Below, one piece after another: positions 33,027 to 36,030 of a DNA stretch of 64,000 nt (within the stretch, counting starts at the first letter, position 1; every line of letters begins with the position of its first letter). The stretch comes from Lagopus muta (lineage: Eukaryota > Chordata > Aves > Galliformes > Phasianidae). The stretch is taken from positions 26,474,214 to 26,538,213 of the forward strand of contig NC_064433.1 in assembly GCF_023343835.1 (NCBI RefSeq). Reading direction: 5' to 3'. The notes under the pieces were generated by a model that saw only the letters and a list, made by a program, of their open reading frames with translations, was not told the DNA's origin and searched no databases. The translations under genes and the position numbers were made by a program.

Positions 33027-36000
33027 ATGGCTCTGCAAGGAGACGACTGCTACTACTATTTCAACTCTGTCTGTCTTAAGGTATGGTTGGGTGTCTTTTG
33101 CCCGGATTATCTTCCTTTCCTCGCTTTGAAGAGGAAGGGGTGGAGCGGGGGGAGACCTGCTGGCGATGCATTGCCTTCATCAGCAGAGGGATTGTGCGCT
33201 CCCTGCTAACAACCTGGGCCGACAGCACGGACGTGTTTCAGGCTGTGCTCTTATTTTGCTGTGTGGTTTCCTTTTGCTCGCAGGGAGACAGCTGTCCCTT
33301 CCGCCACTGTGAAGCGGCTCTGGGGAGTGAACGAGTCTGCCGACTGTGGATACAGGGCTGCTGTTTCCGGAATGACTGCAAGTTCAGACACATGAAAATT
33401 GAAGTGAGTGTTTGCCTAAAGATGAGCTCTCCACCTCCCTCAGGCACGACCTGGAGCGCTGCATCTCTCTGCAAACGTCCTCTGCCTGTTTCCATGACCC
33501 TTCCTTTCTTTCTCTCTTCAGAAGAAGCGCAGTGCGGTTCGCTGCTATTGGGAGAATCAGCCTGGAGGCTGTCAGAAACCCCACTGCCGTTTTCTTCATT
33601 TGAAGGAACGCGGTGGGAACGGACCGACCGTACCACCAAGCAACGGTGAGTTCCTGATGGCATGAAGCATGAAAGACTTAATTATGAATATTACTTCTGA
33701 GCGGGTGCAGGATGTCAGGAAACCATTCATTGGGGAGTGCAGGGAAGAGTGGTGCTAAGTGAAATATTGGTTTGTGTTTTGGCTGTCAGAATAGGGGTGT
33801 TTTTTTTCTCCAGACAGTTAAATGCATTGTAGGTCTGTGCTGACTGCAGAAATGACACAACATTTGAGCAGGGGAAAGGCAAACGCAAGAAACTATGCTT
33901 GAAAATTGGAAGCTTGTGGCTGACTGTGCTGAAACCTTCTTCCAAAGAGATGCTCTTTAATTATTTCTTGTCTTCTTTCTGCCAGAAGCTGACACAAGTG
34001 GCCTTCCTCTGACCAGCGGCCTTGCAGAAAGTCTGGAGAACCAGACAGAGGTTGAGAAGGCACCAGACAGAGGTACAGATACTGAACAGGCATCTGGGTT
34101 TGATGCGCTGCCTTTCTGCTCACTTGTTCTGATTGTTGTCTCCTGGACTGTTCTCTGCAGGTGACATCCCAACTTCCTCCCATGGCCCAGCTGCGCAAAA
34201 ATGCAAGCAATCTGAGGAGGAGGAGGACAAAGCAGAGGAACTGCCGTGCAAGAAAAGAGTCAAGGGTGAGCACCAGGAGCTTGCTACAGTGCCTCAGCAC
34301 AGTAATGCTGTCAGCGTTGTTCTGCGTCAGAGTTTTCCTTGCCCTGGACTATTGCTGAGTGCAGCTCTTGGGTTTCTTTGTTCCTTGTGATGCGCTGTTG
34401 GTAGACGGAGAGAACTGTGTGCAAAACATCGCTGAAATCCTGGACATGGCAGTGTAATTCCACTGGCCAAATGTATTTTACTTCCTGGAAGGGTTGTGGG
34501 AATGATAGGAGAACGTGGATTTCTCGAGGCGCAGCAAGACCTTACCAGCAACGTCTTCCTTTTACTTCAGCTGGACGCAAGGTGCGCAGGAGGCCTATTG
34601 ACTGGAAAACCACCTTCCCCACAATGCGGAGACTGAAACGGAAAGCAGCAGAGATGCAACCGTCTGCTGCTGAGGACACTGATGAGCCCCCAGCCAGAAA
34701 ACTACCTATGGTAAGAACAGCGGCAACAGCAGCAGTGCATACGGAAGGTTTACACTGCACTCGTAGTAATGGTAGCAGTTTCAAATGTTGCACAGGTCTT
34801 CTGTTTCCTCTGAAGGCAGCAGATGTCTCCCAGGGCACTTGTGGAAATTCTCTGTTGCGATTACATGTACCTAGATTTTGTGCATGAACGCTGCGCTGCT
34901 AAAAACTCCCAAGGTCACTTGTAACCTTCAAGGGAACGCTTTCTTCAGGAGCATTGTGCTTCTGTATTTGGGATCAGGCTCAGCAGTGCCTCGGGAAGGG
35001 AGGAGCAGTCCTCAAAGATCATCCGGTGTTCGTCCTGTCCTACTGTGGCCAGGGGTGCCACCACAAGACTCAAATGCCTGGAAACCCATCCAGCCATGCC
35101 CAGAATGCCTCTGGGAATGGGGCATCCACAGCTTCTCTGAGAAGAAGAGCTACTTAGACAATCTTTGAGCCCTGCTTCACACACACTGTCTTGTTTCTTC
35201 CTAGGCGATCCTTGCTTCAGTCCCGCCCGAGTACACCCTGGTCAGCGTTGAAGTCCTAAAACTTCCAAGCAGGTGATGACCACTACTTGTTCTTCACCAG
35301 TGCCCTTTATCCGTTGCACATAAGTTCTTTCACATCAGGGGACAAGTGGAGTGTTTGAGATGTGCCATGGCATAATGCAACAAAGGAAGAAGTCATCTGC
35401 ACTAATTTCAATTGCTCACTCAAAGTCTCTGCTGAGTATGTCATGGGGAGAAGTAACTCAGTCTGTAACAGGTGGACGTAGCAGAGGATGACTTCTTCCC
35501 ATATTTACAGTCAAATAATGAGGCTGGCAATGTGTTTCTGCTACAAAACCTGGCCCCTGTTGGCTGGACTCAAACTGCTCTATCTGTACACATCAATTCC
35601 CACTGTAAGAAATGTGCCTGCTGGTGTCTTGCACTCTAAAGGCAGCCTCAGGTTAACTGGATTGCCATCCCTATGTGAGCGTGAAGTGCGGGAGGGGTTA
35701 ACCACAGATCTCAGAGCTGGTGTGCTGAAAGCTATCTCCAGTTAGAAATGTCAGGTGCTGATTGTTCTCTTCCTTGTTCTCCCCAGTCTGGAACTGCTTT
35801 CGGGAGGCCAGGCAGACTCTGTGGCACAGTCAGAGATCCCACACTCAACATCCCGTGCCATGCCAGAAGCAGACCAGGCGCAACAGCTGAGCTGCACAGA
35901 GGTGGGGAAAGAACTCTTCTCTGAGGGTGAGGACCTCGAGAAGTTACTGATGGAAGTCACAGAAGAAGAACTGGAAGCAGAAATTGCTGACGATGCTGTG

Positions 36001-36030
36001 GATATAGGTGAGCTCCTAATGGAGCTCTGA
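33027..36030 (+). CDS. Short ZC3H11A-like CCCH zinc-finger protein, eight coding exons
   Basis: The coding exons are 33027-33080, 33284-33403, 33522-33645, 33986-34072, 34161-34265, 34571-34710, 35205-35272 and 35787-36030. All junctions are GT-AG, all phases agree and there is no internal stop; the product is 313 residues. Three CCCH fingers match ZC3H11A in spacing: C8-X7-C16-X5-C22-X3-H26, C37-X7-C45-X4-C50-X3-H54 and C66-X8-C75-X4-C80-X3-H84, with family signatures [14 protein letters not shown] and [12 protein letters not shown] basic segment holds [10 protein letters not shown] and EPPARKLP, like the late part of ZC3H11A. The acidic C-terminus (about 280-313, [19 protein letters not shown] and LLMEL) matches the end of that protein. 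The usual protein is about 810 residues, so most of the middle is missing. ZC3H11A binds RNA and works with the TREX mRNA export complex; whether this short copy does so is unknown. It is most likely a duplicate of the ZC3H11A gene found elsewhere in the genome. Confidence 0.9.

Follow-up and report, generated by a model that had tools for sequence, protein, structure and literature searches.

Results

The stretch of DNA analysed here (the window, C1:26474214-26538213, 64,000 nt) carries a copy of a ZC3H11A-like gene. Its eight exons join in frame into 942 nt, corresponding to 313 amino acids and a stop codon, the frame is open throughout and all seven introns are bounded by GT-AG. Frame and splice sites place exon 1 with the start codon at 33027-33080, exon 2 (end of finger 1 and finger 2) at 33284-33403, exon 3 (finger 3) at 33522-33645, exon 4 at 33986-34072, exon 5 at 34161-34265 and exon 7 at 35205-35272, all on the plus strand. 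Exon 6 (34571-34710, plus strand) encodes a basic stretch that, by analogy with the part of the human protein described in PMC10371797, might be a nuclear localisation signal. Exon 8 (35787-36030, plus strand) encodes the acidic C-terminus with the stop and aligns with the C-terminus of ZC3H11A on C27; a possible poly(A) signal, ATTAAA, follows at 36094-36099 on the same strand. The protein has three CCCH motifs starting at residues 8, 37 and 66, and its residues 1-101 match Pfam zf-CCCH_3 (PF15663) with an E value of 1.3e-44 (151 bits, cut-off 31). The first-pass annotation had described an intron-containing ZC3H11A paralogue with eight exons, a 313-residue product, three fingers and an acidic C-terminus, and the frame, the GT-AG introns and the Pfam match agree with it. 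It had also located the gene upstream of IFRD1. Indeed, five PF05004 matches on the minus strand mark IFRD1 exons at window 13307-17225 (C1:26487520-26491438), which puts the window copy upstream of that gene. On the plus strand to the right of the copied block, open reading frames gave nothing usable on gene content.

A short-gene family centred on C18

Searching the genome with PF15663 returned 36 matches. Full-length ZC3H11A had been expected at another locus and was mapped to C27, at about 505-518 kb, with the fingers at 508.8-509.5 kb and the C-terminus, which we take to be typical of ZC3H11A, at 517.2-517.5 kb. Its introns and C-terminus are longer than those of the short gene. The best full-length match, by which an orthologue would be recognised, is therefore on C27 and not at the window locus. 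The short relative, with the same eight coding exons as the window copy, occurs in nine copies on C18 (0.59-1.95 Mb), where the units stand in tandem about 8.8 kb apart, and once on C7; in the nine C18 copies and in the C7 copy every exon is open and the introns are GT-AG. The copies on C16, C59 and C2 are pseudogenes with stops or missing exons. More diverged relatives (66-76%) were found on C17, C85, C11, C39, C25, C31 and C37, and their counts are lower bounds, with 40 of 3038 candidates scored. With 127 of 227 candidates scored, and judging by length and place, none of 67 protein matches spans an exon-exon junction; an ordinary processed copy was therefore not seen. The window copy, with its seven introns, lacks the intron loss that defines a processed retrogene.

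The window copy groups with the three type A copies of C18 (L018, L019 and L020) against all others, with support of 100 for the whole block, 100 for the coding and 99 for the non-coding sequence, and the C18 type A clade itself has support of 100 in each of these trees, all three being unrooted and the coding tree leaving out C2. Thus, the window gene is a member of a multi-copy family of short genes centred on C18 and no direct copy of ZC3H11A. The first-pass annotation had regarded it as a single transposed duplicate of ZC3H11A, which the grouping with type A in the whole-block tree contradicts. We also considered ZC3H11A itself as the parent and rejected it because C18 type A is about 7-8% divergent from the window copy, whereas the C27 gene matches it at 65-79% identity in pieces. 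In the introns, the window copy and the type A copy C18_1947k differ by 7.3%; at a rate of 2e-9 per site per year this corresponds, very roughly, to an age of about 18 million years.

The branch leading to the window copy carries 7 synonymous and 10 replacement changes (P = 0.17 under neutrality), and a frame free of stops on this branch arose by chance in 56% of neutral simulations. Comparing the window copy with C18_1947k, which mixes both branches, yields a dN/dS of 0.42; its binomial P varies between 0.0006 and 0.014 with the synonymous fraction chosen. Their indels, two in exons (both multiples of three) and eight in introns, are too few to decide. Purifying selection on the window copy was considered and is unsupported by its branch. 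The branch common to the three type A copies has 12 synonymous and 13 replacement changes, and the comparison of type A with type B (L012-L017) gives a binomial P of 0.003-0.10. Constraint on type B is supported: C7 and C18_594k differ by 15 replacement and 17 synonymous changes over 228 codons, with a dN/dS of 0.25 and a binomial P of 0.0002-0.002. Between C18_1947k (type A) and C18_594k (type B) the exons are 8-34% different, introns 1-5 differ by 3-7% and introns 6-7 by 10-16%. This suggests that gene conversion homogenises part of the introns of the two types while two different proteins are kept.

The copied block and its CR1 edge

Homology to the other copies extends beyond the gene as noted earlier (33027-36030) and defines a larger block on the plus strand, 31579-36516, which comprises the upstream region, the eight exons with their introns and the 3' region of a C18 type A gene. 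It is 92% identical over its length to C18:1946165-1951091. The homology between window and C18 ends abruptly at both 31579 and 36516, and outside these positions the window shares only repeats with the compared C18 loci; there is no C18 flank on either side. A segmental duplication would be expected to carry source flank along and to have edges unrelated to the ends of retroelements, and the window block does not have this appearance. Within the block, an interspersed repeat at 31842-32145 (block-query 264-567) has 74-80% matches on several other contigs, in places that are unrelated.

At the left edge lies the 3' end of a CR1 LINE, 72 bp long (31507-31578, minus strand) and antisense to the gene, recognised by a stem and three ATTCTGTG octamers. 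Its own truncated 5' end abuts the first base of the block, 31579. A hairpin that binds the reverse transcriptase and an octamer microsatellite are published features of avian CR1 tails (PMC5729268), and the 3' end, the hairpin and the ATTCTRTG microsatellite as 3' tail are all found at 31507-31578, with a stem that folds no better than shuffled sequences (z -0.48; 60 of 200 shuffles as good). The point corresponding to the left edge is read through without CR1 in all 15 other copies seen to cover it, namely ten close intact ones (nine on C18 and the C7 copy) and five diverged ones (two on C17 and one each on C85, C11 and C39). That 31579 could be a natural edge of ZC3H11A homology, given that the C27 match seemed to begin there, was considered and rejected because homology between C18 and C27 runs further left, as do the five further copies. 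Therefore, the copy that was cut and joined at this point is the one in the window.

The right edge is more complex. The block is followed by an unassigned filler of 8 bp (36517-36524) and by a 27-bp inverted fragment of the source gene (36525-36551, minus strand), which derives from the last part of intron 5 (near window 34532-34558), immediately ahead of exon 6. All 27 positions of this scrap agree with C18_1947k and with six type B copies; the match is poorer for the type A copies C18_1698k and C18_1711k and for the internal copy of the window itself. Its score of 27 compares with a maximum of 19 among 300 random 60-mers. A 6-bp direct repeat, TAACAT, is a candidate target-site duplication, with one copy just before the CR1 tail (31501-31506) and the other beyond the inverted scrap (36557-36562). 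A match of at least 6 bp at both ends has a chance probability of 0.05 among random pairs treated by the same generous rule, and the repeat on its own is weak evidence for an insertion.

Other CR1-tailed copies

The arrangement seen in the window, with a CR1 3' end joined to the left edge and antisense to the gene, recurs in three older copies at three places: on C16 and on C2 the edge lies at block position 32282, and on C59 at 32511. Their tails are about 90% alike and differ from the window tail, a likeness that is not specific because the C59 tail has a 94% match in a CR1 of L020. The C16 and C2 copies align from the CR1 into the gene and are one common chimera: in a genome search with the junction, only C16 and C2 matched the CR1 side among 38 matches. 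Three short diverged matches (C30, C32 and C10) begin 6-17 bases before the junction, which makes its exact position uncertain by these 6-17 bases, as they may belong to the gene. The outer flanks of C16 and C2 have other repeats in common and nothing else. Hence, the same tailed element stands at unrelated sites, and its homology stops at the CR1 terminus. Mobilisation of the chimera itself would produce this pattern, and the simplest reading is that the chimera arose once and then moved again. The window's own CR1/gene chimera was found at one site among the matches scored. Neither convincing target-site duplications nor inverted scraps were found in the C16, C2 and C59 copies, and no CR1 was found at the edges of the C7 copy, which belongs to the close clade, or of the nearby fragment C7b.

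In 264 kb of compared DNA there are 20 CR1 3' ends, including the four tails. At this density, about 4e-4 CR1 3' ends of one particular orientation would be expected to lie 5 bp or less from any one edge, in a sample that is not random. All four tails are antisense, but since they represent two or three independent junctions, this common orientation could be due to chance (2 x 1/2^3 = 0.25). Elsewhere in the family, an antisense CR1 3' end lies about 1.1 kb to the right of the block edge in the type A copies 1947k (L020 9219-9403) and 1711k (L019 1331-1515), and a third (L018 8739-8923) stands beside a partial block at C18:1704k.

Discussion

We propose that the window gene is an intron-keeping copy that was probably pasted in by a CR1 LINE through a template switch to an antisense transcript. 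The CR1 reverse transcriptase would have started on the 3' end of CR1 RNA at the target on chromosome 1 and, after 72 nt, would have switched to an antisense transcript spanning the whole C18 type A gene. About 4.9 kb of this antisense RNA would then have been copied toward its 5' end, before the 27-nt inverted scrap was added and the product was joined to the other side of the target. The insert would thus be 31507-36556 as one unit, and the site before insertion would have read ...GTGGAG-TAACAT-GCTGAAGG.... The CR1 3' end stands upstream of the gene in antisense orientation, so an antisense template would have supplied the remainder of the insert. On such a template the introns stay unspliced and the upstream region is carried along, so that the copy arrives as a complete eight-exon gene. 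A single CR1 event could therefore account for the introns, the upstream region, the one-sided tail and the scrambled far end. The RNA intermediate, its antisense strand and the template switch are what we infer from these edges.

The closest competitor to this proposal keeps CR1 as the primer. After the nick and the 72-nt tail, the 4.9 kb could have been copied from C18 genomic DNA following a microhomology-driven repair jump, in which case the introns were kept simply because the template was DNA. The tail, the introns, the filler and the inverted scrap are all explained in this way without an antisense transcript, and DNA copied after CR1 priming would look the same as copied RNA. We nonetheless think it unlikely, though it deserves consideration: the chimera of C16 and C2 is found in two settings with unrelated flanks and stops in each at the CR1 terminus, which is simplest if it was copied as RNA, and four of four tailed copies are antisense, albeit on two or three junctions.

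Other readings give CR1 no part in the copying. Other members of the family did spread as DNA blocks, as shown by the tandem units of C18, about 8.8 kb apart, and by the duplicated blocks near contig ends on C17, C85 and C11, and the C7 copy has no CR1 at its edges. An ordinary segmental duplication from C18, with a CR1 at the breakpoint by coincidence, is still harder to accept for the window, where repeats alone are found outside the block, where an inverted scrap and TAACAT mark the far edge, and where the CR1 truncation point meets the block edge as it does in three other copies. Alternatively, a CR1 may have landed in a larger existing copy and a later deletion may have removed everything to its left. 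CR1s do insert into this family, and intron 7 of the C7 copy contains one that is accompanied by a direct repeat, yet the deletion would have to end exactly at the CR1 3' terminus, and to do so at three or four loci, which makes this scenario highly improbable. In the light of the CR1 retroposition marks at the edges, the conclusion of the first-pass annotation that kept introns mean DNA duplication is doubtful.

Template switching by the CR1 reverse transcriptase has been proposed before (PMC5729268). The passerine elements TguSINE1/PittSINE described there resemble the window copy in having a CR1 3' tail with a hairpin and an octamer microsatellite, and PittSINE is proposed there to have originated by a CR1 template switch to another RNA, as we propose here. 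In contrast to their short tRNA-derived heads, the head in the window would be an eight-exon gene copied in antisense over 4.9 kb. A second likeness is found in the rotifer Adineta vaga, in which Penelope moved a host gene with all its introns and generated a target-site duplication (PMC3846280). The authors discuss an antisense template, in which introns would go unrecognised, and their abstract sets Penelope against all other retrotransposon types in the mobilisation of intron-containing genes. There the carrier is Penelope, with terminal repeats on the gene; in the window it is a CR1 LINE with a one-sided 3' tail, in a vertebrate. Penelope in rotifers is thus a precedent for intron-containing genes borne by retroelements, and a vertebrate LINE case would be a new form of it. 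We recognised no CR1-mobilised intron-containing gene among the open-access titles and abstracts listed, and the terms 'template switch' and 'antisense' are absent from PMC3747384.

DNA duplication is usually told from retroposition by asking whether introns were kept. If our proposal is true, LINEs that copy antisense transcripts break this test and provide a way for a gene to relocate together with its splice sites and, probably, its promoter. Whether bird CR1 LINEs can in general spread whole genes, together with their introns and the upstream region, by switching to antisense transcripts is a more tentative matter, which we rate a little below an even chance. The signature is checkable: a paralogue that contains introns and has, joined to its upstream edge, a LINE 3' end in antisense orientation. 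Another relative of ZC3H11A at a new place is the primate processed retrogene ZC3H11B, which is intronless. Unlike such processed retrogenes, the window copy keeps seven coding introns and its upstream region.

The window protein resembles ZC3H11A in its three N-terminal CCCH fingers, basic stretch (exons 5-6) and C-terminal acidic segment, retained in the same order; at 313 amino acids, it lacks most of the middle of ZC3H11A. ZC3H11A is a TREX-associated mRNA export factor. The fingers of the human protein bind PABPN1 and viral mRNA and target it to nuclear speckles, some THO subunits bind it independently of the fingers, and its nuclear import signals have been located at residues 284-304 and 661-699 (PMC10371797). 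Several nuclear-replicating viruses exploit it (PMC9681899), and a chicken gene annotated as ZC3H11B, which may or may not belong to the family described here, is reported to be weakly up-regulated on avian influenza infection (PMC10434033). From its sequence, the window product is predicted to be a short nuclear RNA-binding protein, which may be a partial substitute for ZC3H11A, or a competitor of it, in nuclear mRNA processing and export. That no function had been described for such a gene still holds for the window copy in the open-access literature, among the titles and abstracts listed. A relative of a virus-exploited mRNA-export factor is present here in many copies.

Other observations concern the wider family. 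Diverged ZC3H11-like stretches occur on the small contigs C37, C31, C25, C48, C30 and C32, with at least 11 distinct places on C37 (a 2.0-Mb contig) and nine places for the upstream region on C48. They amount to a large expansion of the family, which may be located on small microchromosomes. The partial copies on C25 and C31 (L037 and L038) have a CR1 3' end internally, between two matching pieces and not at their edges. Several relatives lie near contig ends (L031-L035), at C17:58-60k and 145-148k, on C85 and at C11:36.69M of a 36.75M contig. By eye, C11, C17:58k and C85 have a repetitive flank in common, which looks like subtelomeric block duplication. At C1:42125804-42125938 (L025), a distant ZC3H11-like finger exon with an internal stop shares 40% identity with the window protein across 43 residues and has no DNA-level match to window 30-40 kb; it is an old relic. 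Also by eye, the sequence to the right of about 7326 in L012 (C18:597k) reads like a retroviral polymerase following the gene block. The long CR1 insert in intron 7 of the C7 copy extends from 7249 to about 9970 of L021, with ATCTCA as its direct repeat (by eye), and the coding exons of that copy are still open despite it.
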